A stretch of DNA of 41,051 bases. It comes from Vairimorpha apis BRL 01 (Eukaryota > Microsporidia > Nosematidae). Under the pieces are notes generated by a model, which saw only the letters and a program-made list of their open reading frames with translations, was not told where the DNA came from and did not search any database. Both the position numbers and the translations under genes were made by a program. The stretch covers positions 1 to 41,051 of the forward strand of contig KE647234.1 of the NCBI GenBank assembly GCA_000447185.1. Reading direction: 5' to 3'. Shown here piece after piece: positions 1 to 40,514 of the stretch; within the stretch, counting starts at the first letter, position 1; every line of letters begins with the position of its first letter.

Positions 1-3000
1 TTTCTTCATCACAATTTACCCTATTAATTTCTATAATATTTTTTCCTTTCTCTATTATGTAAATTCTACATGCATCAATCCATTTTTCTTTTTTCAATCC
101 TTCAACAAACAATATTTCAGAAAGAATATTATCATATTGTTTTACACAGTATTCTATGTCAATACTATTATAGTATTTACTTACTAATTCTCTAACTACA
201 TTAACACTTGTGTCCGGTATGTATTCGTAGTACTTATTTAGTAATCCAAGGATATTTTTCCAGTAGTTTTTTATTAAAATATTGTAATTTTCTATTTTTC
301 CTTTTAAAAGTTCAGCTACTTTTTTTCTAACCAATTGATTGGAGTCGTATTTAAATATGTACAAAATAGTAGACGGAACAGGAATATTTGATTGAAATGA
401 AACGTTATTTATATTACTAACAGTTTCTTTTGAATATTCTTTATTACTATCAAATTCAATTTTACTATTATTAATGATCTCTAAACTACAAATTCTATTA
501 CCACTATTTATAAAACATTCATTCACTAGATATTTATAAACCTTCTCTTTTCCACTCAACTTACTAAATGCCTGTATTGCTATCTTATTATCTTTACTAT
601 TATAAATATCTTTGAGTTTATCAAAATATTCAGGAAGGTATTCTTGGAATATTTCTAGATCAAATGCATGAGATAAGAAATTTAAATTGTTTTTTAATAT
701 TTTAATAATTTGTATACTTAATTGAGTATTGTTTAGTAATTTAAGTATTTGTACTATAAAATACGAAATTCGAAGATCTTTGTCTATATTTTCTATAAGT
801 GGTTGGAAATCTGAAATTTGAAGCTGTTGATTATTATCCAAATCAACATATACTTTTTTATCATTAATTTTACTATCATTACTTTCTCTACTTACAAATT
901 CCTTCATTACATTCACACATTCATCAATACAAAAATTATTATTTACTACAAACAGGTTCAATATACAAAATACTTCTTTTACATACCACTCTTTGTCCTC
1001 TACAATATTATATAATCCTTTTAGTATCTTGAATACCATCTCTTTATACTCTTTTATACTAATCCGTACAAGTTCTATTATAAATTTGATAGAGTATATA
1101 TCTATCATGTAGTTGTATTGTAGGTTAAAAAGAACGTAGAGTGTGTTTTGTATAGTCATTTTATTAGTATAGGAATTTATTATTTGTGATTTAAGTAGTT
1201 CCAAAATCCGGGGTTTTATTTCATTTGAAGAAGAAGCATCCGAGAGGAGTTTACTACTTGTTTATTAGAGTCATCAAGTGAAATAAATAAAGTATGTATG
1301 TAAGAATGATCTAGAGAGAAAGAATTAAAATTTTCGTTACTGTTGGTATTTTGAATAAAATTATTTTTATTATTTTCTTTTTCGTTAAATTTTTTAAATT
1401 AATAGAACTTTTAAAAAGATTTCTTAAATAAGGTTCAATATTAATCGAATGTAAAATATAAGGAGACTTTAAATAATTCATTATTTCTAGATATTCAAGT
1501 GATTTATTAATATAAGACAGGATGAAATATTCATAAAATTTGTAAAAGATACAAAGACCGTCGTTGTATCTAATTTTATAGAGTAGGTAACAAAAGAGTT
1601 GCATATTATGAACAATAAATATATTTGTACTATTTTCAGCTTTATTTTGATTTATACAAATATTCTTGATATCTTTTTTATTGTTATATTTAATATAATG
1701 CTCAATACAAATATCACAACATTCAATATCATCTATTTTTTTGTTAGTACCCAAATAATATATTAAATGACTTTCAGTATTAAAATTTATATTACACCCT
1801 ATTGTTTCTCGTTTGCTATTACAAAGTATCTTAAACAAGTTTATTCCTTCTTCAATGGTGCAATTTTCTTGATCAACATTGGTTATGTATTCATGTGGAT
1901 AAAAATTTATACTATAATCTGTTAAGAGGTCTTTAAAAAAATTTCTATTTATATTTATTTTATTCTTATTATTCGATTTTTCATTGTCTACCAACTTCAA
2001 TAAAATATTATAAATTTCAAAATCTTTTATATTTTTAACTATCATTTTAATGATCTGAAAATAATCAAGATAATTAAAAACAGAAATATGAAATTTACCC
2101 TGTAAAACCTGTTGAGATAAAATCTCTAGATAGGGTGATCGCTCATCAGGGAATAGAGAAAGAGAAGTATTAAAGATATTTAAAAATGATTGTGAGGTAC
2201 TTAAATAAGAGAAAACTAAGTTTTTGAGATTTGTGTCCTTATATTTATCTATTATTGTTTTTAAATTGTTTTGAATATTATTTATATCGTCAATAATATT
2301 ATCATCATCTTTTATTTTTCCATAATATATATTTTTATTATCATCACCTTTATTTTTTCCATTATTAATTTTTATACTTTTTCCATTTTTAATATTAAAA
2401 TTATCACGGTATGAATTTTTCCAAACAAGTACATTATAAATAAATCTATCGCTTATATAAAAACGATCAACATACTCTACAAGCAAATCAATTTTGTTAT
2501 GTTTAACTAAAGAGAAAAAAATCTGGTCATCTATTTTTTTGTTAATATTAAAAAAGTAAGTTAATGGTTTATTCATAGTAACAGATACCTCTACTAATAA
2601 TTGAATAAGAAATGTGTCTATAATATTAAATTCTGTATATTTATATCCATTGTTGCATTTTATATTTATGCAATCATTCTTATGGATATGTTTACTTTTT
2701 TCATTGTTTATGCAATCTTCATCTTTTTTATATTTATTAATTTTTATGCATTCTTTATTCATACATATCTTTTCATTTATAGACTCGTTCTTTTTTATGT
2801 TTATGCAATTGACATTTTTATTTCCATCAATAAAAACTTTATTATTACCGAATAAAAAAACCATTGTCTGATTATACAATTTATTTTCAATACAACCGTT
2901 TTCAATAAAAACCAAATCATTTTGTACAAAATTTAATATATTATTTTTTATACTGTTATAGATTAGCATATGTGGATAAAATTTGTGATTACTTTCAATT

Positions 3001-3863
3001 TGATTATTTAAATAATATTCTAACTTCTCTTTGTTTGTGTAATTTTCATATTTATTAATTTTTTCATTAATTTTACCATCAATATTTAAATTACTATTTT
3101 CTTTTTTAACACTTATATCACATAGACAAAGTATTCTTAGATAAAATTCATAATCATCACGTTTGACATATTTATACAAAAATCCACAATTTTTAAACAA
3201 ACATTTATAAACTAATATATTATAAACACAAGGACAAGATTTGTAAATAAATAATTCCATTAATTTTTCCAAAACATCTTCTTGTAATATAATATCTTTA
3301 TTATGTATAATCATTTTAGAAAGCAACTTAGCAATACATTTTAAATTTATTTTAGACAAAACTAATGTTGTGATAATATCATCAGGTAAGTAATCCTTAT
3401 AATGATCTAAAAATGTTGATACTATGTCTGGTACATATAAGTTAGATTGAATATATGTTTCAATAGATTTAAATTTATTATATTTTTGTGATTTAAGATA
3501 ATATCTTAGTATTTGAAATGGGATTGTTGATCGATCAAGAAAATTTAATATCTTAAGATGATTTTTTTCAGTTATAAGAAGATCAAGAGTTGATAATTCT
3601 ATTTTTTGAGATTGTGTTAAGTAATTATTAATAAAATATGTACAATTTTTATTATTTATATTTTTGATGTTAGTAACACTATCGTTTTTAATATCGTTAT
3701 TTACTAAAATTTTATCAATTTCGCTATTTTTATACTCACATAAATATTTGATATACTTATATTTATGATTAACATGAACTTGATAATGAGCTACTTGTTG
3801 TTTTAAAACAGTAGGCAAGGATTTAAATTTTCTAGATAGTTTTTTAATATTACTGGGATACAT
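1..3863 (-). CDS. Large helical protein of unknown function, truncated by the left edge, with two apparent frameshifts
   Basis: I do not recognise this protein. It reads leftward and is still open at base 1, so the C-terminus is missing. A longer ORF begins at 3887, but a CCC signal (complement of 3872-3874) lies 8 bases before the ATG at 3861-3863, so I take that as the start (MYPSNIKK...). The first frame stops at 1311. A -1 step at the T6 run 1390-1395 (A6 on the coding strand) opens a second frame (...NSNENFNSFSLDHS...). Another -1 step between about 1218 and 1262 opens the third frame, which runs off the window. The product, over 1,280 residues, is mostly amphipathic helix with short Asn/Lys-rich inserts. 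The last part has a HEAT/ARM-repeat look (e.g. VRKKVAELLKGKI). Candidates are a large scaffold of the HEAT class, but no specific family motif is visible. No other gene overlaps it convincingly. Confidence 0.75.
2640..2825 (-). repeat. Degenerate Cys-Ile-Asn repeat inside the large unknown gene
   Basis: On the coding strand this stretch encodes several imperfect copies of a short motif: NCINIKK, ECIKINKY, DCINNEK, DCINIKC. They are spaced about 12-20 residues apart in a Lys/Asn/Glu-rich context. At the DNA level the copies appear as recurrent TTTATGCAAT-like words. It looks like a low-complexity expansion in a loop between helical domains. Confidence 0.5.
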
Positions 3864-3871
3864 TTTTTTAA

Positions 3872-3874
3872 GGG
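3872..3874 (-). promoter_or_regulatory. CCC start signal of the large unknown gene
   Basis: On the coding strand CACCCTT precedes the ATG at 3863 by 8 bases. It favours this start over the ATG 24 bases further upstream at 3887, which lies on the far side of the signal. Confidence 0.7.
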
Positions 3875-3887
3875 TGATTAGTAACAT

Positions 3888-4953
3888 GGTATTTAAATAA
3901 TTCGAATGATAGTTTATTGATTAAAAATTTTATATTTTAAATTTAAATAATCTACATTTTATGTGTTATAAATTAATTGTAAAAAAGTTTTGTATTGAAA
4001 TAATTTTAGTATTTAAAAAAAATTTATTATTTATTTAAATCAATCAAATTTCTATAAAATGAAAAAAATTTAAATAATTTTTACAATTGTAAAAATGTAT
4101 AATTTATTGTAAATAAAATGCCAATAAAAATATAATTTATATAAAATTGTATGGTTTTTAAATAAAAAATTTTATTTAAAAATTTAAAACCTATTTAAAT
4201 GAAATAAAAATTTTAATATTTTTAAAGACATAATATAGTTAATGAAAAAAATATTTAAAAAAAAATTTTGAATTATGTTAAAATTGTTCATGTTAGTACA
4301 AAAAATATTTATTATTTGCAAAAAACTCAAAATAAAATTTATTAAATTTATTTATTTATTTTAAATTAGAATATTGATTTAAGTATTATTTATTTTTTAA
4401 CTTTTTATAGCGCAACATTTTTTTTACATATATAATACTTTGAATTTTATATAAATTTAGAAATTAAATATAATAAAGAGTATAGTTTTTTAAGGTGTTA
4501 TAAATTTAAGATAAAAATTTTAATAAAGTTTATTTTTAAATAATAAATTTGTTTGTATAATTAAATTTCTTTATAAGATATATAAAAAAAGGTTTATCAA
4601 ATACTCTAAATTGATTTATTAAATCTAAAAACCAATTTATGAATATTTCATATAAAATACTAAATAATCCAGAAAAATAACTTCTGGTAGATTATAATTT
4701 TTAATTTTTAAAAATTTTTGTACAACAACAAAGTATTTTAATTAAGATGATATAACCTATAAATACTACTGATATGATTAATTATATTTCTTTACTTAAT
4801 TTATTAAATGTTAACTTAAGAGGCTCACTGAAATATGATAACATAAAGTTATGACATTTTAAATACAATTGAAAAAACTTTATTCTTAAACAATTATAAA
4901 AAATGCCATATTTTTAATCAATAAATTATAATATTAAACAAAAAACTTTATTT
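3888..4953. other. A+T-rich spacer
   Basis: No coding potential seen on either strand and no CCC signal with a following ORF. A slightly less A+T-biased patch lies at about 4815-4860. It contains CTGA followed by ATGATAA, a weak box C/D-like pairing that I do not regard as a gene. Confidence 0.6.
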
Positions 4954-5959
4954 TTATTCACTTAACTTATTCTTTTTTACATGGTCATCTTCATTATCTA
5001 TACCATCTTCACATTTAAACTCTTCAGCATCGTCAGTCCATGATATCAAAAATGTTCTGTCACATGGTGGTACCATTATGTTTAACTCTACATTTTTTTT
5101 ATCAATAGTATATCCTCTAAATTCAACTATGTCATCTTTAAAAAGCGTTTTGTTAAGTTCAACGTTTATTTGTTCAAATGAAGAGGAATGAACTTTTTCT
5201 TCTTGTTGTTCAAGACTAGAATCTTTAGATTTTGAGTCATTTTGAATATTTTCTTGTACAGCTTCAAGAAGAGGTCTTGGCTTTTTAAGTTTGTCTTTTT
5301 CAAATGATTCATCGATTTCTACTTTAATGTTTTTTTCTTCTTCTTCTTTTATTATTTGTTACACTTTCTTCTTTATCATTTATATTTTTAATATCTTTCT
5401 CATCTTCCAATAACTTTTCTCCATCCTTCTCATCATTAATATCATCTCCTATTTTTTCTTCATCTTTACTATCTTCTTCATCATCAACAATCAAATCATT
5501 TACTTCCTCATCATTTTCATCTTCTTCCTCATCCTCTTCTTCTTCTTCACTACATATCACTTCTTCAGTTTCATCAACAGTAATCAAATTTTCATTAGGT
5601 ATCCCAGGATAATAAACATCAACAATATATCCAATTCTTAAAAATTGTTGTCCTCTGAAACTTCCAATAATTATTATACTAGTTAACCCAAACAATTGTT
5701 CTAAAGGTATTCTGTCAATATCAGGTGCATCCGCCTCTAAATTAAATTTAACATTACCCTTAGGTATAGGTGAAATTTCAGTTTCTGATAATATTTGGTC
5801 TTCGTTTTCATTTGTTACATCTACAGTATATAATACTGTAAATATTACACCTTCTTCTATTTCTTGTTTGCTGTTTAAAACAATTTCAAATTCAAATGGG
5901 TCTGTTATTTTACGAATTGTATTTTTTAAAGATATCGATTTGAATGTTAAAAGTTCCAT
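4954..5959 (-). CDS. ASF1: Histone chaperone ASF1 with acidic insertion and one apparent frameshift
   Basis: ASF1 binds histones H3-H4 and delivers them during replication, transcription and silencing. The first frame (residues 1-211) has the Asf1 immunoglobulin-like core: ITDPFEFEIVLNS matches the conserved TDPYEFEI strand, PIPKGNVKFNLEADAPD matches the P-x-G-x-x-F-x-x-A-D-x-P region, and FRGQQFLRIGYIVDVYY matches the GxEFxRVGYYVxxxY strand. From about residue 133 the chain turns strongly acidic. The frame ends in KRRRRKKH and stop. A +1 step at the T7 run 5330-5336 or the T4 run 5347-5350 opens a second frame of about 125 codons ending at 4954. That frame contains CDRTFLISWTDD, which resembles the last core strand of Asf1 (RFHINWED type). 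One gene of about 334 residues is therefore likely, with the acidic segment placed before the last core strand. The start is fixed by a CCC signal 4 bases before the ATG. Confidence 0.88.
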
Positions 5960-5963
5960 TTGA

Positions 5964-5966
5964 GGG
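5964..5966 (-). promoter_or_regulatory. CCC start signal of ASF1
   Basis: The coding strand reads TACCCTCAA directly before the ATG at 5959. The signal and start match the conserved N-terminus of the protein. Confidence 0.7.
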
Positions 5967-7133
5967 TAATGGTAGAAATTGTTTTAGAGGTAAAGTTGTA
6001 TAAAGATAATATATAAATAAAAAAGAAATTTTTTATTGATAAGCAAATAATTTTTTTTGCAATGTCAATAATAATATTTAACATGTTTTGTCAGATACAT
6101 AATTAATTTTAATTATAAATTATTTTATTACAAAATACCCAATTTTTTATAAAATTTTTAATAATTGTGTTGAAATATAATATATTATTTAAAATGAGTA
6201 AATTTTTTATATTTCTGTAATTAATTATAACTTCCAAAACTAATTGAATTCATAAAAGTATTAATTGTTTAATTTTTTATAATATTTACTTTTTTTATTA
6301 GAAAATATACAATTTATTTTCTTTTTTTTACATATTAAAATTTTTTTTAGGGATTTAAAATTTTATATGTTTTTTTAAATTTTTTAAATATAAAAACTAT
6401 TATCAAATTTTGATTTATAATTTAAAAATTAGAGATCTAAATTTAATCTATCAATTTATAAACTAAAAGCAATGAAAAAATTCATTAAATACATTTTTAT
6501 ATTTTATATTTCTTATAAATAAGTAAAATTTAAAATTAAATATTCGTTTTTTTATTACAATTTACTTTACCTTTAGAATTTTAACATTTATTGTTTTTGT
6601 TTTAAATAATTCTTTTTATTAAATAACTATTTTTTAACTTTTTTAAAGTTTTTTAAAATGAAAAAAAATAAATATAAAAATAATAAAAAATTAACTTAAA
6701 CTTTCTATTTTTTAAATACAATAGTATATATAATTATTTTATTTTTGGTTTAAATATATTTTATTTTTTAAAAAGTGTTATAAAATTAAAATGAAAAAAA
6801 ATTCAAATTTAATTTTTTTTACTTTTTATGATAGAATATAAAAAATTGTTTATATCATTATGTTTACAAATCATGTTTAAATTTTATTATAACAAAAATT
6901 AATAAAGTTTTTACAAAAAATCTACTTCTAAAACTTAAATGTTTGTTTAAATTTTAAAGACCTAATATAAATAACTTAGAAATAAATACAATATTTAAAA
7001 ATTCATTTACTAATTTTTAAAATAAAAAATAAAAGTTAAGAACATTATTTAAAAATAGAATTATATAAATCTTAAACAAAACTATAATTATTATCACATG
7101 AAAAAAATTAAATTATAATTTTTAAAATTTTAG
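5967..7133. other. A+T-rich divergent spacer between ASF1 and P2
   Basis: Shared 5' region of two divergent genes. Long A and T runs. A CCC at about 6350 on the minus strand is followed by ATG and an immediate stop, so no gene is called. Nothing else seen. Confidence 0.6.
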
Positions 7134-7137: not shown

Positions 7138-7142
7138 ACAAA

Positions 7143-7460: not shown

Positions 7461-8867
7461 ATTAAAAATAATTTTATAGCATATAATATTATATCTTTTT
7501 TGAAATTTATTTTTAATATTTTATCTTAATCTTTTTATGAATATTTTGTTGTAGTTTTGCTTCATAAATATTTTTATTTTAGTTTAATAATTATATTTAT
7601 ATATTTCTGACTAAAATTTTACTTGGATTATATAAATAACATAAAATTTATCTATTTTAGATATTTTAATTTTAACGATATGATTTTTGAATTTTTAATT
7701 TTAATATATTTTTATGTTGATTATATTAATTATTTATTTTATATAAAATGTTTTTAAAAATACTACTTTAAAAAAATTCATAAATAAAACAAAATTTTTA
7801 TATAAACACATTACTTGAAATTTAAAATATAATTTTACATCTCTTTTTATTATGTAATTAAACTATTAATATGAAAATATGTTTAAATATATCTTTAAGA
7901 TAAAATTCATGTTTATGTGACTATTATTATATATATTTTTTAATTTTTTTGATTTTATTTTTTAAAAATGTATTATTTATAAATATATAAGTTATATGAT
8001 ATTTCATTTGTTTGAAAAATCATACAAATTTATTATGTTTTTTCAATTTTCTATTGAATACCATTCTTGAAAACAAAAAAATCTTATAATTTTTTTTTTA
8101 CAATAAAATACGATATAATATTTAAGTTTTTAAAAATTATATTTAAGGATTTGTTTTAATTGTTTAATATACATAAAAAATAGTTGTATTTTATATATAT
8201 AAATGGTCAAATGTTATTTATGTAGTATATTAAAAATATTTAATAGATTTTTCTATAAAAAATATTATATACAATTTATAGAAAACATATTAAAGTTAAA
8301 AATTTTTTTAGGAGATATTGTTTTTTAAAATAAATCAATAATTGATATATAAAATTTATTAACTTAAATATATATAGTTTTTTTAAGAAAAAAAACATTA
8401 ATGTTTGTAATTTATTTTGTTTATTCTATTGAAATATTATTCTTATAAAATTTAATTTGAAATAGTTTTGTTATATTTTTACATGTTTATTATCTATTGT
8501 TGATCATCATTTTGATAAATATTTTATTAAAATAATAAGAATGTTTTAATTATTATGTATGAAAGAATGTGAAAAAGTTAGTATTTATAATTTAAAGTTA
8601 AATATATACTTGTATTGTTTTTAAATTTGACAGTTTTATTTTTCTTTATGTTTTAAATATAATACTTTTAAAAAAAAAGTATTTTGAAATTAAACAAAAA
8701 ATTTTATTAATCAATTAATATACATTGAATTAAAAAACATATGATTTTTTTGAATAACATTTATAAATTTTATTTGTGGGTTTTGAAACAAATTGTTTTA
8801 ATTTAATAAAAATTTTTACTTTTAATCTATATTTAATTTTTGTTATAAAGAAAATTTATACATACCA
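7461..8867. other. A+T-rich spacer
   Basis: About 1.4 kb with no ORF that I can support on either strand and no CCC signal other than the one belonging to the next gene. Confidence 0.6.
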
Positions 8868-8870
8868 CCC
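8868..8870 (+). promoter_or_regulatory. CCC start signal of the PNKP-like gene
   Basis: CACCCTCTC precedes the ATG at 8875. The frame is open further upstream, but only non-ATG codons are available there, so this signal decides the start. Confidence 0.7.
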
Positions 8871-8874
8871 TCTC

Positions 8875-9830
8875 ATGAAAGAAACTCAAATTAATGACTC
8901 TCTAATAATATTAGATTATGATTTTAAAATCATTTCTAATAAATTAGCAATTTTTGATTTAGACTCAACACTTCTTAAATATTATGAAAGTAAAGTACAA
9001 AAATTTGAATATCAATATAAGTCTGTTCCTGAAACATTAAAAAGATTATATAAACAAAATTACAGTATGGTTATTGTAACTAACCAATCAACTATTATTA
9101 TTAATAAAGAACTTGAAAAACTAAAAATGAAGCTTAAAAGATTTATGGAACATATACAAATTCCTTTTTTAATTTTTATATCTATAAAAAAAGACAAATA
9201 TAGAAAACCATCAATAGGTACTTATACATATTTATTAGAAAATTACAAATGTAATAATTTTGAAGATGTTTTTTTTGTAGGAGACGCATATGGAGTATCA
9301 TCTAGTTATGTCTCAGATTGTGATATAAAGTATGCTTATAATTGCAATATTAAATTCTATACACCAGAAGAATTTTTCCTTAATAAAAAAATGAACGTCA
9401 GCTTTGATAAATTTGATGTTACAAAATTTACAGGTGATTTTACACCAAAAAAACTAAATATATATTTATTTATTCCTTGAAAAAATATAGTGGTGTTACA
9501 ACATTTATCAAAAAATATTACAAGGATTATACGATTAACATTGATGATGTTTTAAAACCTCAAAATGTTTACATAAACTGTAATAAAAAAGATTTATATA
9601 GTTTGTGTTCAGAAGACTGTACCTATTATTTGTTTGATTACTCCAAAGATATTATTAAATGGTGCAAAGGATTTTTTTTTACAAGTGGGATGTTTTACAA
9701 AAAAAATTTTGCAGTTTGTAAAAAAGAAACTCTAGATTATCTTCAAGAAAAATTTATAAAAGTCCCTTTTATATTTGACGAAAGTGAATTTACAAGTGAA
9801 CAAAAACAAATAGCTCTTTTACAGTTATAA
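8875..9830 (+). CDS. PNKP: Polynucleotide 3'-phosphatase (PNKP/Tpp1 type) with degenerate kinase half and one apparent frameshift
   Basis: The enzyme removes 3'-phosphates from DNA breaks so that polymerase and ligase can act. Residues 1-190 form a HAD-type PNK3P domain: IFDLDSTLL (nucleophile D28, D30, then S-T), VIVTNQS at 67-72, a Lys-rich stretch KKDKYRKPS near 105-113, FVGDAYG at 134-140 and SDCD at 147-150. FYTPEEFFLN is the usual closing motif. The frame stops at 9480. A -1 step at the A7 run 9447-9453 joins a second frame ending at 9830, giving about 318 residues. That second part aligns in outline with the PNKP kinase domain: YIFIYSLKKYSGVTTFIKK occupies the P-loop place, YTINIDDVL the next strand, CTYYLFDYSKD the next. 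The P-loop lacks the GK[S/T] lysine, so kinase activity is unlikely. The kinase comparison is inference. Confidence 0.85.
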
Positions 9831-12792: not shown

Positions 12793-13855
12793 ATAAACCT
12801 TTTCTAAGTTATTGTATATATGTAAATTTTGAGTATATAAACTAGAAATATTTTTTGTGTTCTGAAATTAGAAAAAAATATACTTTTGAATTTAATTTTA
12901 ATTTATAAAAAATTTATTTAATTTATTGGACATATAAATATTTAAAAAATTATATGATTTTTTGTTAAAGCAATTGTTTTAAAAAAAATATTTTAACTTT
13001 GTTGATTAAATGATATTAAATTTTTGTAGAAATTAAACTCTAATTTTTAACTTATTTTTTTATTTGTATAATTTTAATTTAATTTAAAAATTTTTATTAA
13101 ATAGTAGATTTTAAACTAAAAATATCATTATTTTAACAGTAAAATTATATTATTTTATTTTATGAGTTAATAAAAATCTTACTTTAAAATTTAAAGTTTT
13201 ATATCATAAAATAACATATTAAAATTTTAATAATCAAATTTATGTAAAAAATGCTTTTAATACAATTTAATTAAATTATTAATAGAATATGTTATAAATA
13301 TTGATAAAAAATAAAAATTTAAATTCTATAAAGAATGTAAGTTTTTAATAATTATAATTTAAATTATACAAAAATAAAATATTTATATTTTTATAATTAA
13401 CTTATATTTTAATTATACAAATTAGATTAAGGTACTCAATTTTTTGTTATAAATCTTTATCTGTTAGTTGTTAAATAATTAGATTCAAAAAAAATTATTT
13501 TTTGCTTTTAATTCTAAAAGAATACATAAAAAACAATGATAAAAAATGTTTTTTATTTCAGAAAAAATATTTATTTTATAATAAAATTTAATTTATAACA
13601 ATCTTAAACAAAAATAATTAAACACTGTTTGTTGCACATTTTTATAAAATAAAAAATTCATCATATTTATATATTTAAAGATACAATAAATCACTAAATA
13701 ATTTCTTAATAATGTTTATTTTAAACTATAAATTTATTAAAACTAAATGATTTAAAAATAAAAAATTATATCTTTTAAAATAAATTACAATAAAATTCCT
13801 TACTTATATAAAATTTATTTTGCATAATGAAATAATTTATAAATAAAACATTATA
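12793..13855. other. A+T-rich spacer
   Basis: About 1.06 kb between two plus-strand genes. No supported ORF, RNA gene or repeat seen. Confidence 0.6.
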
Positions 13856-13858
13856 CCC
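13856..13858 (+). promoter_or_regulatory. CCC start signal of RPT4
   Basis: TATACCCTTAAT precedes the ATG at 13864 by 5 bases. Confidence 0.75.
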
Positions 13859-13863
13859 TTAAT

Positions 13864-15026
13864 ATGGATACTCAAAAAATTTACGAAGCTTATATAAATG
13901 CTATAAAATCTAACGAGACAACATATAATAATTTAAAAATGGAACAAGAGATATACAAGCAGACAAATAAACAATTTCTTAAATCTGAAAAAGATGTAAA
14001 AAGTTTGCAAACAATTGGACATATAGTTGGAGAAGTTTTAAAAAAATTAATGATGAAAAATTTATTGTTAAAAGTAGTCAAGGACCCAGATACGTTGTTG
14101 GTTGTATGAAATCTATTGATCGAAATTTGTTAGATACTGGTACTCGTGTAGCTCTTGATATAACTACTCTTACTATTATGTTAATTTTACCTCGTGAAGT
14201 TGATCCTATGGTTTACAAAATGAGTGAAGAAAAACCTTCTGATTTTGGTTTTGAAATTGTTGGAGGATTAAAAAATCAAATACGTGAACTAAAGGAAGTA
14301 ATTGAACTACCAATTAAAAATCCTGAAATTTATAAACGTGTAGGAATTAAAGCTCCTAAAGGTGTTTTACTTTATGGTCCACCAGGTACTGGAAAAACAT
14401 TATTAGCACGTGCAGTGGCTGCTACAATGGATTGTAATTTCTTAAAAGTTGTAGCGTCTGCATTAATAGAAAAATATATAGGAGAGTCAAGCAGAATGAT
14501 TAGAGAAATGTTTGCATATGCAAGAGAAAGAGCTCCTTGTATAATTTTTATGGATGAAATAGATGCCATTGGAAGCAGACGATCTTCTGACTCAAGTTCA
14601 TCCGATCGAGAAGTTCAGAGAACTTTAATGGAGCTTTTGAATCAGTTAGATGGATTTAAAGAATTAGATAATGTAAAAGTTATAATGGCTACTAATAGAC
14701 CAGACATTTTAGATCCAGCTTTATTAAGACCCGGTCGACTGGATCGTAAAATTGAAGTACCTCTTCCAAATGATCAGGCCAGAAAAGAAATACTTAAAAT
14801 ACATATGCAAGGTATGGAAATCGATGGAGAAATTGATTACGATGTTTTAGTCAAATTAACTGTTAATTTTAACGGTGCCGATTTACGAAATGTAAGTACG
14901 GAAGCAGGTATGATGGCTATTAGGGATGATAGAGAATTTGCATTACAGGAGGACTTTATTAAGGCGGCTAGAAAAATTGGTGAAAGTAAAAAATTAGAAA
15001 GTAAATTGGATTATAAAAAGAAATAA
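13864..15026 (+). CDS. RPT4: 26S proteasome regulatory ATPase RPT4 (PSMC6), one apparent frameshift
   Basis: RPT4 is one of six AAA+ ATPases in the proteasome base that unfold and thread ubiquitinated substrates. The N-terminal part (about 60 residues) is a coiled coil leading into [12 protein letters not shown] -1 step at the A7 run 14040-14046 is needed to continue into GPRYVVGC, the OB domain signature, and then [16 protein letters not shown] and [10 protein letters not shown], which are diagnostic for RPT4 among the Rpt paralogues. The ATPase domain has Walker A GPPGTGKT (about 172-179), Walker B IIFMDEID, sensor ATNRP and [10 protein letters not shown] with the arginine fingers. The C-terminal helical domain closes with [13 protein letters not shown]. 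The corrected length is 387 residues, normal for the family. Without the shift the first frame stops at 14109 and the protein would lose all catalytic parts. Confidence 0.97.
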
Positions 15027-15359
15027 ACAATATTAAGAATGTAAATGTTTTTATTAATTTAAAATAAAAAAAATAAATATCATTATATTTAAATATAATT
15101 TTAAAATCTTTTAATTTTAAGACAATAGTATCAAAAAAATAATTAATTATTTTATTTAAAATATATTTTTGATAAAAAATAAAAAAATTTAATTTAAAAT
15201 CAATGTATTTAAATTAATTTTTTTTATATTTTATAAAACATAAAACCCTTAAACATTTTAAATTAATATTCTTTAAACTGTTTTTATTAAAAATTTAAAG
15301 TTTTAAATCAAAAATAAAATCTATCTTTTATTTTTTGCATTACATTTTGTTTTTTAAAA
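15027..15359. other. Short A+T-rich spacer with a spare CCC signal
   Basis: ACCCTT occurs at 15245-15250 without a usable ATG after it, about 112 bases before the signal that is next to the following gene. No other feature seen. Confidence 0.5.
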
Positions 15360-15362
15360 CCC
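15360..15362 (+). promoter_or_regulatory. CCC start signal of the OB-fold gene
   Basis: AAACCCTTTG precedes the ATG at 15372 by 9 bases. Confidence 0.7.
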
Positions 15363-15371
15363 TTTGTTAGA

Positions 15372-17100
15372 ATGATCTATAAAGTTTTTGAAATATTTAG
15401 ACAGTCAACAAATTTTTTTATTCTTACATCTGACGGGCCAAAAAGAGTGCATTCTAGTCTTAATGATAGTATATGCAAAGGTTATATTTTTAAAGATGAT
15501 TATATTAATATAGATAAAGAAACAGATACAGGAATACTTTTCACTGTTGTTAACACAGATGAATTATCAAAAGCTTATAATGTTGAAGCTAAAAAAATTA
15601 AAAATAATGAGACAAATAATAATTCTGATGTAATAAAAAATGATGAAAATACAAAAAATGAAAAAAAACAGAAGTTGAAACAATTGAAGATATAACTATT
15701 CAAGAAAATTTCGAATATAATTTACTTGATTATTATTATACGACACACAATTTTTTACCGTATCTTACTGATGTATTACCTTATTATACAAATATTGTAA
15801 CTACAAATAGTAATTCTACAAAAAGTAAAAGAGGAATAATAAAATACAAATCTAGAATTAATCTTGCAAACAATAAAGCTTATTTTTTTTATATATTAAA
15901 TTGTGATGATAAATTAATTAAGGGAATGATTTGGAAAGAAAATTTTAAATTTTCTTATTTTGAAATAGGAGATGAAGTTGAAATTTTTAAATATAGACAA
16001 AGTAAAGGATTTCAAAATCATGGACATATAGAAATAAATGAATTTAGCGAATTAGTTTATTTTAATATAGATGAAATAACGATTTCAGAAATGACACTTG
16101 TGAAGAAAAATAATGATGAAAAATTAAAAAATAATACATCATATGAAGAAAAACATATTGATTTGTTAAAAAATATTAATCATACTGTAAAAGGTGTTAT
16201 CTATTATACAAGTATGTTAAATAAAAAAAAGGAAGTAATTATTTAGATTATTATTTACTAGATGTTGAAAACAAAAAAGTAATTTTATTTTACAATTCAG
16301 ATTTGTCTTTTTATAACATAGAAGCTGGAAATATTATAGAAATAAAAAACTTAAGAAAAATTCAAAGAAGTGGATATGATCTATATATTTCTACAATTTA
16401 TACACAATTTAAATATGAAATAATAACTCAACTAAAAGAAGAATGTTCGTCTTTTTTGTATGAAGATAACAAAAAAAGAAAGTTATCTATTAATTGTGAA
16501 AATGAAAAAAATGATAGTTCTTTAGATGAAGAATTCATAAAAAGAGTTAAAAGAGAAACTAATGAAAATATCAATAAAGATGAAGAAGAAACATATGTAA
16601 GACTTAATATTACTCATTCATCTATCCAAGGAAATAAAGTTTTTATCGAAAAAGGTTTTGGTTTTATTCCTGATGATTTGGATAGTATAAATGATTGCAA
16701 TGAAATTATTGATAATGTTTCATATGTTGTGCATCCTTTTTTCATACCAAATAAAATATCTTTGCTTGAATTGGAAGAAAGGTGTAACAAATTAGTTATA
16801 AACGAAAGTGATAAATTTATTTTAGAAGCAACTGTTTTGGGAATTGAAGAAGAAGAAGATTTCAATATTGAATATGTTGATTCTGATGAAATAAAAAGAC
16901 ATTATCCCGTAAAGGTAACTGTAGAAGGAAATATAGATTTTTATATATTTAACAATTTTTTTATTCCAAATAATCTTATTGAAGATATTAAAACTAAGGT
17001 TGATGAAAGCATTGGGAGAAGACATTTTTTTATTATACATGCATTTAGAGATTCAATAGATAATGTTTTATTTTGTATTAGTGAAATGAAAATGATTTAA
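15372..17100 (+). CDS. Multi-OB-fold nucleic-acid-binding protein (RPA1- or POT1-like), two apparent frameshifts
   Basis: Three open segments in successive frames make one protein of about 576 residues. A -1 step at the A8 run 15661-15668 joins the first (to 15695) to the second. Another at the A8 run 16223-16230 joins the second (to 16246) to the third. Two segments have clear OB-fold patterns. At about residues 153-230, YKSRINLANN, then KLIKGMIWKENF, then GDEVEIFKY. At about 273-350, TVKGVIYYTS, then YLLDVENKKVILFYN, then AGNIIEIKNLRKIQRSGYDL. A third possible fold follows near 475-570 (YPVKVTVEGNI, FFIIHAFRDS). Such serial OB folds occur in replication protein A large subunits and telomere-end-binding proteins. 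No zinc-ribbon cysteines are visible, so it is not a plain RPA1 C-terminus. The family is inference; the domain class is better supported. The CCC signal fixes the start. Confidence 0.65.
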
Positions 17101-19926: not shown

Positions 19927-20585
19927 TTAAATATTCTTTTTATTAAAGAAAATCCACTCTTGTAAAACGCAGTAAGCAATTTTTTCCAATTGATTTCTTT
20001 TAACATTTGAAAATAGTGATTTATATGGTTTGTCGGGAAGTTCGTATTTTACATAAAATTCTTTTTTTTAATTTCATTCATTAAAAACTGATCAGAAATT
20101 AATTCAGGATATTTTCTTAAAGAATAATCAATTCTGTTAAAAAAAGGAATATTAATTAATGTTTCTTTACTAAAAATAGGTCTGTAGTAAGCAATAACAT
20201 GATAAGTTTTATCTTCATGAACAATACTAATAGTTTTTTTATGTAAACCTAATTTATCTTCTTCTTTAATTTCTTTTTGTAATTTAACTAATTGATCTTT
20301 TTGTAAACTTCTTTTTTTAATTGCGGACTTAGATAAATGTCTTGGAACCTCTTTATAAAGTAAGAATTGCCCGTTTATTTTTGATGGAGACCATATTTTT
20401 CCATCTGTCCATCTTTTTATTCCATTATCAGTTTCTACAAAAACAAAAATATCTCCTGATCTTAAATTTCCTCTTTCTTCAACTTTTAGTCGTTGTGTTA
20501 TTGGAGTTATATAACCTAATCTTGAAGCATGTACCATCAGAATTGCTTCTTCGTATGTTTGGACATATCCAAATAATTTATTCAT
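19927..20585 (-). CDS. Gti1/Pac2 family (WOPR-domain) transcription regulator, one apparent frameshift
   Basis: WOPR proteins are fungal DNA-binding regulators of cell-type switching (Wor1, Ryp1, Gti1 and Pac2 belong here). WOPRa spans about residues 4-80: GYVQTYEEAILMVHASRLG, then RGNLRSGDIFVF, then IKRWTDGKIWSPSKI and GQFLLYKE, all hallmark segments. WOPRb is at about 115-150: KKTISIVHEDKTYHVIAYYRP. The first frame stops at 20049 after NEIKKKNFM. A -1 step at the T8 run 20062-20069 (A8 on the coding strand) extends it through KEFYVKYELPDKPYKSL to a stop at 19927, giving 219 residues. Almost nothing lies outside the DNA-binding domain, so this is a minimal member. It shares a divergent spacer with the TIM22-like gene. 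Confidence 0.93.
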
Positions 20586-20589
20586 ATGA

Positions 20590-20592
20590 GGG
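20590..20592 (-). promoter_or_regulatory. CCC start signal of the WOPR gene
   Basis: The coding strand reads ATCCCTCAT immediately before the ATG at 20585. Confidence 0.7.
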
Positions 20593-21591
20593 ATTTTTGG
20601 AATTTTTATATATTTCTTTTTTTATCAAGTTACAAACAATTTGATGTGCGTAATGACGTATAAAAAATTACAAATTAATTCTAAGGTCTATGCACAGATC
20701 ATAAAAATAGTTTTAGTTTGACATTTTAAGATGTTTTTGAGATGTTAAAAGCAAATCAATAAATGGATCATAATATAAATAATTTGAAAAATTATATATA
20801 TTTAAAACATATATTTATGATATAAAAAATTGAATTTAGCATTCTAGTCAATTTATTTATTTTTATTTAATTAATATTTTATATATTATGAGCCATTTTT
20901 TAAAGCAAATTGATTTCTAAATATTTTTTTTAGTAAAAAAATTTAACGTTTTATTAACTTTTATTTTTAATCCATAAAATTAAATAATTCTTAAATTATT
21001 ATTTTTTGATTCAAAATAATACTGTTAAAAAGATTAATTGCTTCAAATATTTTTTCATAAAAAATAAAATAAAAATTTTAAATTTCATTTTTTTTTAAAT
21101 GAAACATTTTTAAAATTAGATTTTGTTAATTTAAAAACTTTTTTGAAAGATATAATATTGATTTTTTTTAATATACTGACATAATATATTTTCAAATTTT
21201 TTTTGAAATTATAACATTAATTACATTTTGTGTAATAAAATTTAATTTTTTTTAATCTTTATAATAATATAAAAAAAATTATTTTATGCTACTATAATAT
21301 TACAAAAAAAACTAATTAATATATAAATTTAAAATAATAAAAATTTTGTTCTTATTATAATCTAAATAGAATAGTTGCGTCAATATTTTTACTTCTTTTT
21401 TGATTAATTTTATAAAATCAAAATTCTTAATATATTATATTTTATTCAATAAAAAATTAAAAAACTTATAATTATTTTTTATTTTAAAGTATAAAAAGTA
21501 TTTTTTTGATTTTAATTTTAATCATATGTTCATTTTAAAATTTATACAATTTTATACATTAATATTTAACTATTAAGAAAATAATTTTAAA
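20593..21591. other. A+T-rich divergent spacer
   Basis: Shared upstream region of the WOPR and TIM22-like genes. The part next to the WOPR gene (about 20640-20715) is less A+T-biased and contains TAATGACGTATAAAA. No other feature seen. Confidence 0.55.
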
Positions 21592-23001: not shown

Positions 23002-23167
23002 AGATATAATAACAGTAAAATTTTATAAAATTTATATTTTTTTAAAATAAAATATTTTAATTTCAAAATATACGATTTTTTTTTCTAAAGTCTATAATCA
23101 ATGAATTAAAAAAATCATAAATATTATTTACAAATTTTTTAAAATATTCAAATTTTTTAATTTTTTT
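23002..23167. repeat. Duplicated block, left copy
   Basis: The 166 bases from AGATATAATAACAG to the T7 run before GTCATGCC recur at 23359-23512, after the gap. Differences are nearly all in homopolymer length, and the left copy has the longer runs. The two copies are followed by different sequence. Confidence 0.9.
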
Positions 23168-23332
23168 GTCATGCCCCTGGGGATACGCCCCAGTTTTAAA
23201 ATAATATTCAACAATATTGTTATAATTATAAGATGTTTTATTTGTATTTTTATTGAACGTCTTATGACGTGTAGTTTCAATATACCTCTCTGGGTCGATA
23301 TTGCTTCTTGTTGTGTTCAACTTTCTATGCAT
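23063..23332 (-). CDS. Partial ORF of unknown function next to the assembly gap
   Basis: An 89-codon frame runs leftward from an ATG at 23332, only six bases from the run of Ns, so the true start may lie in the gap. It crosses the GC-richer island (residues 1-53, including GAYPQGHDKK) and continues without a break into the duplicated block (EYFKKFVNNIYDFFNSLI). I recognise no family. Codon use in the island part differs from the neighbours, with more G+C. The right copy of the block encodes the same C-terminal segment but has an in-frame stop just upstream. No CCC signal is visible before the ATG. It could be a gene fragment, a mobile-element remnant or a chimera made by the assembly. Confidence 0.3.
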   Translation of the reverse strand: MHRKLNTTRSNIDPERYIETTRHKTFNKNTNKTSYNYNNIVEYYFKTGAYPQGHDKKIKKFEYFKKFVNNIYDFFNSLIIDFRKKNRIF

Positions 23333-23338
23333 ATATAT
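23168..23338. other. GC-richer island with a C4-G4-C4 hairpin
   Basis: Markedly richer in G+C than anything else non-conserved in the window. At 23174-23193 three tracts CCCC, GGGG and CCCC stand close together. CTGGGG (23177-23182) can pair with CCCCAG (23188-23193) over the loop ATACG, and the first CCCC can pair with the same GGGG as an alternative. It ends at the assembly gap. Confidence 0.6.
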
Positions 23339-23358
23339 NNNNNNNNNNNNNNNNNNNN
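23339..23358. other. Assembly gap of 20 Ns
   Basis: Twenty undetermined bases. They separate the island from the second copy of the duplicated block, so the real distance and even the adjacency are uncertain. Confidence 0.99.
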
Positions 23359-23512
23359 AGATATAATAACAGTAAATTTATAAATTATATTTTTAAATAA
23401 ATATTTAATTCAAATATACGATTTTTTTCTAAAGTCTATAATCAATGAATTAAAAAAATCATAAATATTATTTACAAATTTTTTAAAATATTCAAATATT
23501 TTTAATTTTTTT
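23359..23512. repeat. Duplicated block, right copy
   Basis: A 154-base copy of 23002-23167 starting directly after the gap. It is 12 bases shorter through shorter A and T runs (for example TTTT where the left copy has TTTTTTT). After it the sequence turns to ACTTACG instead of the GTCATGCC of the left copy. Confidence 0.9.
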
Positions 23513-33057: not shown

Positions 33058-33062
33058 TATAT

Positions 33063-33628: not shown

Positions 33629-33632
33629 TTTA

Positions 33633-35718: not shown

Positions 35719-35721
35719 CCC
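35719..35721 (+). promoter_or_regulatory. CCC start signal of the RING gene
   Basis: TAACCCTC precedes the ATG at 35724 by 2 bases. This favours it over the later in-frame ATGs. Confidence 0.7.
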
Positions 35722-35723
35722 TC

Positions 35724-36887
35724 ATGACAGAAGAAAATTTTAACAACTTTTTTACTATCTTTATTATGATGGATGCAGATCAAGAAAATAATATGGGATA
35801 TAGTATGGGAAATTTCACTTCAGACCGTGAAGGTTTAATCGAATCAGTTATGAGCACATTAGCAGAAAGGTCAGGACAAAATAATACAGAACAGGAGATT
35901 AACCATCGTAATTATCGTGGATTTTTAAATGCACTTAGTATGTTATTAGAAAGTAGCATGACGACTGAGCTTCGAACAAGAATAAGAACAAATTCTGGAA
36001 ATAATTTGAATAGAAACAATGATATTAGAAACAATCCTATTTCATCTCATACTGAAACCATACAGAATATTTCTAATCTTCAAAACAATAATACTGAGCA
36101 GTTAAATTTTGATGTGAATAGAATGCGGGGAAGAGTTATGAGGAACAGATTTGTATATGCAGAAGAAGGACAAGTTGAACAAAATAATGATATCAATTTA
36201 AACAATTTATCTGAACAAAATTCAAATGTTAATAGATTTTTAAGACCAAGATGGAACACTTTGATTGAAAATATTCAAACAATTAATAACTTTAGAACTT
36301 CTGATTTGAATGAACAAATTAATATTAATTCAGAAAATATTAGTGTTCAACAAGTTAATAATGTAGCAGAATTTTCAAATGTAAATGAAAATAATATTAA
36401 TACTGAACAAAATAATACTGAAACAACAACTAACAACGCTAATGGTCCATTTACTTTTAGATTTGAAAGTCCAATTAATTCTAATAACCAAACTGATGCT
36501 TCTCATCAATCAAATTCTCGGAATTCTAACAATTATTATATTATTTTTGATTTTTCAATTAATGGAAATGTTTTTAGCATAGAATTTGATCGCTCTAATC
36601 TTGGTTTAACTGAAACTTTAGCTCTTTTTGAAAGTTTATTTAATGCTTCTGAAAGAAGAAAAGTTCTTAAAAAGGAACAATTAAAACAATTTAAAGCTTT
36701 TAGAGTTAATAAAACAATGTTAAAGACAGATTGTGCCATTTGTATGAATCAGTATAAATTAAGAGAACTTGCAAGAATTTTGCCTTGTGAACATACATTT
36801 CATACAAAATGCGTTGATAAATGGTTAATTAAACACAGTACAACGTGTCCGGTTTGTAGAAAAAGCGTTTTAAATGAGAGATTGTAA
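35724..36887 (+). CDS. RING-H2 E3 ubiquitin ligase with Asn-rich N-terminal region
   Basis: RING-H2 proteins recruit an E2 enzyme to ubiquitinate substrates. The 387-residue chain is mostly Asn/Ser/Glu-rich low-complexity sequence up to about residue 255 (many NN pairs). A short globular part follows ([21 protein letters not shown]), then a basic helix ([18 protein letters not shown]). The C-terminal RING-H2 domain at 337-378 has C337, C340, C355, H357, H360, C363, C375 and C378 in the exact C-C-C-H-H-C-C-C order, with [16 protein letters not shown] between them. This is the class of RNF115/126- and Praja-like soluble ligases. No transmembrane segment is evident. Substrates cannot be read. 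The gene is unbroken despite its length. Confidence 0.92.
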
Positions 36888-38386
36888 TTTTACAAATTAA
36901 TGTAAAATGTCAATGTAATAAATATGTATTTTGCAAATTTAATTTTTTATTAAGAAAATAATATAATATACCTAAGTTCTTTTAAATAATTTTTGTTTTG
37001 TATTTATTTCATATTTATAGAAATTTAAAGGCTTTTATCTTGTATTTTATTGTTGAAAGCGAAATGATAATATGTTAATTTATTTAAACATTTAAAAATT
37101 ATGCATATTTTAAAATTAAAAGGTTGTAATAAATAATAAATTAATACATATTTCTTCTCAATTTAATCTATTTTTTTAAGATTAAAAATATATTTAATTT
37201 TTTAATTATTAATTATTAACAAAATATGAATATTAAAAAAATTAAAAATTTATTTTCCAAATTTTTAAATAATAAAGAAAAACTGATTTATAAATATTGT
37301 CTTTTAATTACATTATAATAAATATTAGTAGAAAAATAGAGAATTTAAAAATTTATTGTGAAGTAAATCATTTAATTCAATAAAAACTGTGTTTTTTAAG
37401 TCATTTTATATAAAAGATAAAAACGAATGTGTTAAGCATTTTTCTTTGTAAAAAATTTCATATATATTCATAGTGTTTTTTTTACAATGTTTATATATTA
37501 ATAAGTTATATAAATATGAATTTATCAAATTTAATATATTTATTAAGTTTATTTAAATGTTTCGTTCTCATTTATTTAGTTACATTTTCAGGTGCAGGAA
37601 TTAAAATTTGAGTCCGGTTCTTTTATTCAACGTTTCTTATTTATCGTATTAAAAAATTAAATTATAAAAAAATTATATTAAATAAGTTATTGTTTTTATG
37701 TAATTATATTTAAAAGTAATTCATAAATTAAAAAAATATTATTTTAAATTTTAGTTTTTTTATTATTAAGAATATAATATTTTTTAATTGTTGATTAAAT
37801 AATTTTATTTATAAAAATTAATTAATCAATATTTTATCTCATGAGTAAAAATAATATAATTTATTATACTTTTTAATATTAAAAATACATCATAATAACT
37901 AAAATATTAATAAACTAAAAATTTTAAAGAGACAATAAAAATTTAACAAAAATTTTAAAAATTAGATTTTATATATAGTATAAATGAAAAAGATAATTAT
38001 TGAAGTTAAATATATTTTTTCAAAAAATTATGCTTTATATGATATTTTTATAAATATTTAAAAATAAAGTTAAAAGAATAATTTTATTTTGAATGCCAAA
38101 TTATACAATTATGTTATGTAACATATAATAAATTTTACATTTACAATAAAATTATTATTTTTCTACTAAAAATGAAAAAATAAATTCTATAATATTTCTC
38201 TATTGTGTTTCGTATATTAAAATTAAAATAATAACAAAAATTTATTTTTGTAAAAAATTATATATTAATTAATATATATTTAATCAAAAAAATTTATACT
38301 TATAATAATTAATTTTTAAAATGATATATATTTTTTACATAAAATTAAGATTATTTTTGTGATAACATTTCAAATTAAATAAAATA
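36888..38386. other. A+T-rich spacer with one less biased patch
   Basis: About 1.5 kb. A patch at about 37590-37635 (GGTGCAGGAATT and TTTGAGTCCGGTTC) is richer in G+C than the rest and encodes nothing I can see on either strand. It may be a small RNA gene or a regulatory site. Confidence 0.5.
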
Positions 38387-38389
38387 CCC
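38387..38389 (+). promoter_or_regulatory. CCC start signal of separase
   Basis: ATACCCTTTTTT precedes the ATG at 38396 by 6 bases. Confidence 0.75.
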
Positions 38390-38395
38390 TTTTTT

Positions 38396-40514
38396 ATGAT
38401 TTTACTTAATAAAATTACTTTTCGTATAAATAATTTATTGTCAAAAGTAACATCAGATTCAATAAATGAAGCGCATAAAGTTATAGATAAATATTTTTAT
38501 CTTTCTTCTAAATTTCCACCTTTTACTTTTGAAAAATGTATGTTAAAAATGTTAAGTAAAGTTTATCATCAAGAAATGTACAATAAATTAGAATATCTTA
38601 TTTATCACAATGAACATAATAACAAAGAATTTAGTAATATTTTTGTACCTTTTTGCATTATTAAATATAAATATAAAAAAGAAATTGATAAAAATATCGA
38701 TAAATATATAAATCTTTGTGATTCCAAATTTAAAAATAAAATACTTAAAATAATTACAAATTCTGAAAAACAAGAAAAGTTTACTTATAAATTTTTTTAT
38801 ATAGATGATTGCATTTGTAATTTTAGAATAAGCACAGAAAATGGTGATTTTTATGAATTTTATAACAAAAAAATTATTACACAAAATTCTTCAGAAGATA
38901 AATTTATTCAGTTAGTAAATTTATTTGTCGAAAAAAAATATATACAATGTAAAAAATTGATTAAAGACATTCTTGTTGATGTATCTGATATACAAAAATT
39001 ACATATTTATAATTTATTAATATATTGTTATTTTAATTTAGGAATGTATCAAGAATCAATATATTATATTGATAGATGTTTGTCTATGTCAGAAATAACC
39101 TATAATTATTTTATTCATTATAAATTTTTAATTGAACGATTTGGAAATTCATATGGTCTTTACTCTAAATTATTCTTTGAGCATGAATTTAACAAATTAT
39201 TACACACTATTAAAAATAATTTAAATGAAAGTTTAATATTTGAAAAAAATTTATTAAAAAACGATGTTAAATATATTTTAAATGTAAATGATATTAATGA
39301 TCTTAATTCATATAGTGATCTAAATTATTTTTGTCTTAACAATAGATTAATTAATAATTTTAGATTAGAAAATAAAATAAATGTTTTACGAGAAATACGA
39401 AATCTAGAAGAAAATACTAAAAATTTAATTAGAAATTTAAAAAACGAGTTTTTAGTTATTAGTATACATTGTATTCAAAATTTTTTATATTTAAATGTCA
39501 ATTTTAATCATATAATTAACACAAATTTAGATTATAATTTAATAAGATATAAATATCAGGCTATTTTACGAAAAAATAGAGAATCTTTTTACGAAAAAAC
39601 AAAGAAAGATGGTGGTTAGAGCGAATTAAATTGAATAATGAAATGAAAGAATTGATGAATAGTGTTAATTATAATTTAATGATAGAAAAAGAGTGCATTA
39701 TTTTAATTTTAGATGAAAAAACAAGTGAATTTCCATTTGAACATACAATTATGTTACATAAATATCATACTTATAGAATTTTATCTTCTGAGTTTTTACA
39801 AACAAATTCTTTTGTTTCTAAAACCTATGGAAATGATTTTTATACTAATAATGATATTCAAAATAAAAATTTTTAGACACATTAACAAACCATAACAAAA
39901 TTTCTTATAGTATTTTTAATGTAGATTTTAAATTGGAAGATAAGAATTTTGATACAAAGAATTTTCATCGAGATATAAAAAATAATAATTTAAATATTTT
40001 AAAATACAATTTTATTATTGATAACTCTTTGCAAAACACTTATAAAAGAATTACTAATGAATTTACATATTTAAAAGAGGATAATTTCAATTGTATACGT
40101 TATTTTGGACATGGAAATGGTAATAAATATTTATCAAATTATAAAGATAAAATATTATTTCTTTTTGGTTGTTCAAGTGTAAAATTAATTTGTAGAGACA
40201 ATTTTAAAAAAAATAGCACAATTCTAAAACATATAAAAAACAATAGAATAGTATTGGGATGTTTATATGAAGTAACAGATAAAGATATTGACATTTTTAG
40301 TATTGAATTATTAAAAAGTAACGGTGATTTAAGCAAAATTGTAAAAAAAGCACAGAGTAAAATGAAACTTAAATGGTTAAATGGGTGTAGTATAGTTATA
40401 TATGGTATGCCGTTCATATATAAATCTAATATAAAAAAAATATTTAATATACATTTAAATTTTTATATTGTTGTTAATTTTCAAATATATATAAAGACTA
40501 AGAATTTTTTTTAA
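38396..40514 (+). CDS. ESP1: Separase (ESP1), compact, two apparent frameshifts
   Basis: Separase is the clan CD cysteine protease that cuts cohesin at anaphase. Three open segments make one protein of about 706 residues. The first frame (38396-39619) is helical, probably TPR-like (e.g. ASp/Tyr-rich helices near 39000-39100), and ends DGG. A -1 step at the A6 run 39594-39599 gives ERWWLERIKL, the W-W-x-x-R signature, then LILDEKTSEFPFEHTIML, the L-x-L-D-x-x-x-x-x-[LF]-P-W/F-E motif. A second -1 step at the T5 run 39870-39874 leads to the catalytic part: RYFGHGNGNKYL with catalytic His573, FLFGCSSVKL with catalytic Cys593, GCLYEVTDKDIDIFS, and KLKWLNGCSIVIYGMP. All these are diagnostic. Yeast and human separases are two to three times longer, so the helical N-terminal half is strongly reduced. 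No securin candidate was recognised in the window. Confidence 0.95.

Follow-up and report, generated by a model that had tools for sequence, protein, structure and literature searches.

Frame changes in a 41,051-base scaffold of Vairimorpha apis BRL 01 are most probably errors of the deposited 454/Celera assembly

The window analyzed here, a scaffold of Vairimorpha (Nosema) apis BRL 01 taken in its full length of 41,051 bases, contains seven genes that are continuous only if the reading frame is changed at ten points, raising the question of whether the organism recovers these frames during expression or whether the deposited sequence is in error. A sequence-only reading had taken a run-length error in the assembly as the simplest explanation and real runs rescued by slippage as the alternative. 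With a probability of about 0.97, the frame changes are errors of the deposited 454/Celera assembly of V. apis BRL 01 rather than recoding, as all three of the broken genes compared with other sources are whole there. The support comes from knowing which assembly this is and on what platform it was sequenced, and from intact proteins for four of the ten breaks, a sign bias, a dependence on run length and a scarcity of long runs outside called coding sequence. The intact copies, the 454 origin and the truncation of non-coding runs thus bear out the simplest explanation, whereas slippage or programmed frameshifting is not required to account for the breaks and receives no support.

Each of the ten frame changes can be seen in the sequence, and nine of them are also called by a coding-frame Viterbi model run blind to the earlier list of breaks; the run lengths quoted in that list match the sequence. 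In the stop-to-stop frames, overlapping open pieces were found for ASF1, the PNKP-like gene, RPT4, the DUF5088 gene (two overlaps) and separase (two overlaps). The large gene, on the minus strand and with no Pfam match, consists of an upstream piece at 3920-1311 (part 1219..3920) and a downstream piece at 2..1261 that extends past the scaffold end; there is no overlap between its two main frames, which are bridged by a 60-codon open middle frame (1398-1219), so that two changes (1398-1311 and 1261-1219, called at penalties of -8 and -10 but not at -14) are required if this is one gene. A sequence search of both pieces against PDB chains gave weak matches only (best E 0.8 and 0.038, the latter to calmodulin), which were taken for chance. 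On the plus strand, the phosphatase piece of the PNKP-like gene (8767..9480) overlaps a second piece with no Pfam match (9438..9830), the frame changing within 9438-9480. The DUF5088 gene, previously described as an OB-fold gene, has a first piece with no Pfam match (15318..15695), a second (15662..16246) and a third (16225..17100), with breaks in 15662-15695 and 16225-16246. The claim that domains continue over the breaks holds in Pfam, where the DUF5088 profile is matched at 2-123 and then 126-184 and Peptidase_C50 is split across two separase pieces. In the WOPR (Gti1/Pac2) gene, on the minus strand, the first piece (20049..20621) ends at 20049 and the second frame opens at ∼20067, placing the break near 20049-20067; the short second piece was missed by the coding model, which left this break uncalled at every penalty from -8 to -26. 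Neither Rfam nor a tRNA scan gave a hit in the window.

The model recovered nine of the ten window breaks at penalties of -8 and -10, six at -14, three at -18, one at -22 and none at -26. The bias to one sense is confirmed for the breaks called at -8 and -10, each with the sign originally assigned to it (eight of one sign, ASF1 of the other), WOPR being the break without a call. Corrected lengths that are exact multiples of three had also been offered as evidence, but these are not independent, because the frame shift was picked to yield such lengths. The model was also applied to a genome sample consisting of the window and twenty further V. apis BRL 01 stretches of 10 kb each (207,361 non-N bases), giving at -14 a total of 38 frame changes, 32 versus 6 by sign (p = 2.4e-5), and a ratio of 27 to 5 with the window removed (p = 1.1e-4). 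The bias was present at every penalty with events: 58:19 of 77 at -8, 48:12 of 60 at -10, 32:6 at -14, 12:2 of 14 at -18 and 5:0 of 5 at -22, with no events at -26. As strict penalties drop most events, the absolute break count is soft, the density being one frame change for every ∼1.5 to 6 kb that the model calls coding, given 60, 38 and 14 events at -10, -14 and -18, respectively. Opposite-sign events make up 6 of the 38. One sampled locus, L010, has eight events, and part of the 38 may lie in decayed or mobile genes.

The controls consisted of codon-shuffled sequence, artificial genes and reversed sequence. No events were called in any of five codon-shuffled sets or, at all three penalties used, in 150 artificial unbroken genes. 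The reversed sequence gave three events, all of the majority sign, within 5,097 positions called coding; with so few positions called, the per-position rate is not lower, although the total is (3 versus 38). Recovery by sign in 150 artificial genes was 147 each at -10, 120 versus 115 at -14 and 61 versus 37 at -18, where the model itself leans toward the majority sign.

The proposal that A/T runs are the break sites stands for runs of seven or more and carries little weight for runs of five or more considered by themselves. Among the 32 majority-sign events, 30 touch a run of at least five, 26 a run of at least six and 20 a run of at least seven, compared with 16.7, 9.4 and 4.2, respectively, expected for random coding zones of equal size; none of 1000 draws reached any of the observed values. 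Since 16.7 of 32 random zones already touch a run of at least five, such a run alone is weak evidence, and the signal is carried by runs of seven or more. The break rate per coding run was 0.1% at length 4 (2/1670), 0.5% at 5 (4/818), 1.6% at 6 (6/382), 8.4% at 7 (13/155), 9.8% at 8 (5/51), 2/6 at 9 and 0/1 at 10, where each event is credited to the longest run touched, a choice that favors long runs; that longest run was merely 4-6 in 12 of the 32. On the coding strand the base was A in 28 of 32 breaks versus 453 of 595 coding runs of six or more, a difference that is not significant (Fisher p = 0.20).

A/T runs above length 8 turn scarce whether or not they lie in called genes. For runs of ten or more, only 1 was observed in coding sequence versus 19.3 expected, and 10 outside it, where extrapolation of the decay across lengths 4-8 predicts 110.8; the outside class denotes all sequence beyond the called segments, possibly with uncalled genes in it, and the spectrum is that of this assembly alone. 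A scarcity of long runs where there is no frame to recover points to undercalling by the sequencing method. A related pattern is seen in a 166-base block (23002-23167 and again 23359-23503) whose two copies flank a 20-N gap. The copies have the same order of 82 runs, of which 14 differ in length, all 14 being shorter on the right. Among runs of three or more, 8 of 21 are equal in length, the last three differences lying where the copies diverge, and in the first stretch right of the gap, a stretch selected after inspection, 11 of 11 are shorter.

The scaffold, on which the deposited protein NAPIS_ORF01645 lies, derives from a 454 Titanium paired library assembled with Celera Assembler 6.1 at a coverage of ∼15×, the figure for non-repetitive contigs, with the reads cited as SRA067788 (PMC3726280). 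No second platform was noted in that paper, whose main text contains none of the words "Illumina," "homopolymer" and "frameshift." Correct genotyping by 454 is given as 95.8% for 4-mers, 87.4% for 5-mers and 72.1% for 6-mers (PMC5822529). In pyrosequencing a run of identical bases is read as one signal, the certainty of its length falling as the run grows; at ∼15× and a genomic A+T content of ∼81%, consensus runs would often be too short and less often too long, and each such error inside coding sequence would appear as a frame change.

Near-identical unbroken proteins in other public assemblies cover four of the ten breaks in three of the seven genes, including the opposite-sense one. For RPT4, a proteasome ATPase (plus strand), the frame changes within the overlap 13989-14109 between a first piece (13843..14109) and a second piece with the AAA domain (13989..15026). 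Two intact copies of 387 residues each, P0002 and P0003, are both identical to the second piece at 327 of 328 positions and match the first at 63 of 75, with the alignment extending beyond the break. Separase, also on the plus strand, comprises pieces at 38366..39619, 39580..39876 and 39867..40514, with one break in 39580-39619 (called at -8 and -10) and another within 39867-39876. These correspond to residues 1-404, 398-493 and 493-682 of the 684-residue intact copy P0121 (401/404, 94/96 and 187/190 identical); both of the breaks originally listed are present, and the comparison reveals that the count was incomplete, with a further C-terminal change at the A8 run 40433-40440. ASF1, a histone chaperone (minus strand), has its opposite-sense break in the overlap 5324-5358 between a first piece (5324..5983) and the acidic tail (4954..5358), aligned to residues 1-210 (204/210, one gap) and 205-335 (129/131) of the 335-residue copy P0123. 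The RPT4 and separase copies lie on contigs of 4,480-7,520 bases, which suggests that they are genomic DNA, whereas the ASF1 copy, on a 1,596-base contig, could derive from a transcript. Compared as proteins rather than as DNA or reads, the copies differ from the window by few residues and so come from other isolates, not from a re-reading of BRL 01; they presumably represent genomic DNA of the same species.

The six breaks outside this comparison (large gene, two; PNKP-like, one; DUF5088, two; WOPR, one) probably share the same cause. That at least one of them is a true feature of the DNA, rescued by slippage amid sequencing errors elsewhere, is very unlikely.

It is highly unlikely that the broken genes are decaying pseudogenes or real indel alleles in BRL 01, as the slight sequence differences in other isolates and the clustering of breaks at some sampled loci might suggest. 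In the in-frame parts, identity to the intact copies is 97-99.7% for RPT4, separase and ASF1, and neither accumulated damage nor relaxed constraint is apparent in RPT4 or separase at the identities given above. Moreover, RPT4 is a core proteasome ATPase for which no second copy was seen in 5.96 Mb (12 matches, the next best 50-52% identical), and decay leaves unexplained why long runs are also scarce beyond the called genes.

Slippage of RNA polymerase at true DNA runs, restoring the frame in some mRNAs, is extremely unlikely. To our knowledge, a frame break recovered in this way would be the first in any microsporidian. The A+T-rich genome, the breaks at A/T runs and the transcript-sized contig of the ASF1 copy are all compatible with it, and there are precedents in Blochmannia (PMC3017870) and Buchnera (PMC3164680). 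However, the contigs bearing intact RPT4 and separase exceed one such mRNA, and, judging from proteins and contig sizes, the DNA behind these three of the ten breaks is in frame in other isolates. Long runs are also rare outside called genes. In addition, 32 one-sign events in 207 kb compare with 1-18 homopolymeric frameshifts, counted by other criteria, per 416-642-kb Buchnera genome (PMC3164680), and the 12 events at runs of 4-6 contrast with the tracts of at least nine mentioned for Blochmannia (PMC3017870). Programmed or general ribosomal frameshifting, for which the dominance of one sign might speak, is scarcely credible, given that near-identical copies of three genes require no shift, that RPT4 and ASF1 are, as judged at the protein level, listed unsplit in V. 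ceranae, N. granulosis and V. necatrix (P0004, P0005 and P0125) with no conserved shift site, that both signs occur, that the event rate tracks run length and that no shared site beyond an A/T run is apparent by eye.

The probable errors of the assembly have a close parallel in N. ceranae BRL01, which shares with V. apis the genus, the 454 chemistry and single-base frame breaks, and for which the authors hypothesized 58 single-base assembly errors of this kind (PMC2685015). The N. ceranae annotation marks frame errors with N or X, whereas neither "homopolymer" nor "frameshift" is used in the main text on V. apis. The Buchnera and Blochmannia systems resemble V. apis in their A/T-run breaks, otherwise intact essential genes and A+T-rich intracellular setting; their new genomes rest on Illumina reads, plus 454 for Buchnera, and recovery of full-length product is reported from earlier work (PMC3164680, PMC3017870). 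V. apis differs in that its three checked genes are in frame elsewhere, its breaks are denser and its long runs are scarce outside genes.

No new recoding mechanism is revealed, and the value of the finding lies in a warning on the public V. apis genome. No printed report of V. apis frame errors was found among the open-library papers listed on microsporidian or Nosema apis frameshifts or in PMC3726280. Of the 10 genomes that PMC10133504 compares in its Table 1, V. apis BRL01 ranks last by BUSCO score (75.0%), while N. ceranae BRL01, also sequenced by 454, reaches 93.9%, so that 454 by itself does not explain the V. apis value. The one deposited gene model inspected skips 71 bases at a frame break. 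From the break density in the sample, damage to gene models is probably widespread in V. apis, many database proteins being cut short, divided or joined across spurious introns, and claims of gene loss, species-specific genes and completeness based on the V. apis BRL 01 assembly warrant rechecking.

The ten frame changes in seven genes listed in the sequence-only reading are present in the sequence, with stop-to-stop frames, Pfam domains spanning the breaks and a Viterbi model of the coding frame, for which 38 long ORFs from the same sequences served as training set, all in agreement. At a shift penalty of -10 the model recovered nine of the ten with the signs originally assigned, and at stricter penalties it called six (-14), three (-18), one (-22) and none (-26). 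The WOPR gene, a member of the Gti1/Pac2 family found here in a microsporidian (20049-20621, minus strand), has a short second piece and its break was called at no penalty, though the frames themselves are as described. The large gene does need two changes, because its main frames do not overlap and are bridged by a 60-codon middle frame. No frame changes were called in five codon-shuffled sets or in artificial unbroken genes, and breaks planted in artificial genes were recovered almost equally for the two signs at -14 (120 of 150 versus 115 of 150). Three events appeared in reversed sequence, where just 5,097 positions were called coding; each had the majority sign.

The observation was therefore correct and careful, and its cause is ordinary. 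The simpler of the two explanations offered with it, that run lengths are wrong in the assembly, is supported by the dependence of the breaks on run length, the scarcity of long runs outside genes and the existence of intact copies of three genes; we place its probability at about 0.97, with four of the ten breaks covered by a check of the individual break. The window is a complete scaffold of the V. apis genome. This genome was sequenced from a paired 454 Titanium library and assembled with Celera Assembler 6.1 into 554 scaffolds from 1,138 contigs, at a mean depth of 15x for non-repetitive contigs, and the words Illumina, homopolymer and frameshift are absent from the main text of that report (PMC3726280). 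The sequence used here comprised 223 contigs and 5,960,447 bases of the published 8.5 Mb.

The window and twenty 10-kb stretches (207,361 non-N bases, penalty -14) contained 38 frame changes, 32 of one sign and six of the other (p = 2.4e-5), or 27 versus five when the window is excluded. Eight of the 38 fell within a single stretch (L010), a cluster that may include decayed or mobile genes. Runs of at least 5, 6 and 7 were touched by 30, 26 and 20 of the 32 majority-sign events, compared with 16.7, 9.4 and 4.2 for random coding zones of matching lengths, and these counts were equalled in none of 1000 random draws. When every event was credited to the longest run touched, the break rate per coding run was 0.1% for runs of length 4 and climbed to 9.8% for those of length 8; two of six runs of length 9 had breaks, and the single run of length 10 had none. 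This is the form expected from pyrosequencing, for which correct genotyping on the Roche 454 was 95.8, 87.4 and 72.1% for 4-, 5- and 6-mers, respectively (PMC5822529). The break base was A on the coding strand in 28 of 32 events versus 453 of 595 coding runs of at least 6, which is not significant (p = 0.20).

Outside called coding segments, A/T runs roughly halve in number with each extra base from length 4 to 8 and then drop steeply, with 56 of at least 9 and 10 of at least 10, versus 217.9 and 110.8 expected from extending the decay. Neither slippage nor recoding accounts for this scarcity. Slippage at true poly(A) runs, recovering the frame, has been reported in Buchnera (PMC3164680) and Blochmannia (PMC3017870), but is very improbable here; the 32 one-sign events in 207 kb compare with 1-18 homopolymeric frameshifts per 416-642-kb Buchnera genome (PMC3164680), albeit under different counting criteria.

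A further hint of run-length error comes from the 20-N gap, 20 N being the Celera default for such gaps. It is flanked on both sides (23002-23167 and 23359-23503) by a block whose 82 runs follow one order, with 14 of them unequal in length and always shorter in the right copy, where the shortened runs lie near the contig end. Just past the gap, all 11 runs of at least 3 in the first stretch are shorter, and beyond that stretch eight are equal; the last three length differences sit where the copies diverge and are to be discounted. The two blocks could be one locus assembled twice, with contig ends unmerged, or a real repeat. Left of the gap, 23168-23338 lacks a counterpart in the right copy, overlaps an open minus-strand frame (23063-23377) and is possibly a mobile-element remnant.

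The strongest test of the breaks is whether the same gene is intact when sequenced by others, and this was applied to RPT4, separase and ASF1. RPT4 is represented by two whole 387-residue proteins in other assemblies, whose source labels are lgn (presumably Logan) and ena; the second window piece differs from each of these proteins at a single residue. Separase is found as a whole 684-residue protein (17 member sequences), tiled by the three window pieces at residues 1-404, 398-493 and 493-682; an additional frame change, missing from the original list, lies at an A8 run (40433-40440) two residues before the C terminus of the intact copy. ASF1, with its break of opposite sense, is found as a whole 335-residue protein (10 member sequences), of which the window pieces span residues 1-210 and 205-335. 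Thus, four of the ten breaks are absent from other assemblies. Judged by their identity, these copies would be from V. apis. The contigs carrying intact RPT4 and separase (4,480 to 7,520 bases) exceed one such mRNA and are therefore probably DNA, and the ASF1-bearing contig (1,596 bases) could be RNA. Ribosomal frameshifting that restores the frame, and gene decay as the source of the breaks, are both contradicted by these intact, near-identical copies.

Run-length errors would also bear on the annotation. Table 1 of PMC10133504 covers 10 genomes, among which V. apis BRL01 has the lowest BUSCO completeness (75.0%). This fits sequencing errors, but chemistry alone does not explain it, since N. 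ceranae BRL01, the other 454 genome, stands at 93.9% (PMC10133504). For N. ceranae BRL01, the published genome joins 58 pairs of ORFs, each on the hypothesis of a single-base error (PMC2685015). In V. apis, the deposited separase model NAPIS_ORF01645 (exons 39086-39613 and 39685-39873) is identical to two of the window pieces at 176 of 176 and 63 of 63 residues and stops at the second separase break. At the first break it skips 71 bases (39614-39684), an omission that looks like an intron invented to span an error.
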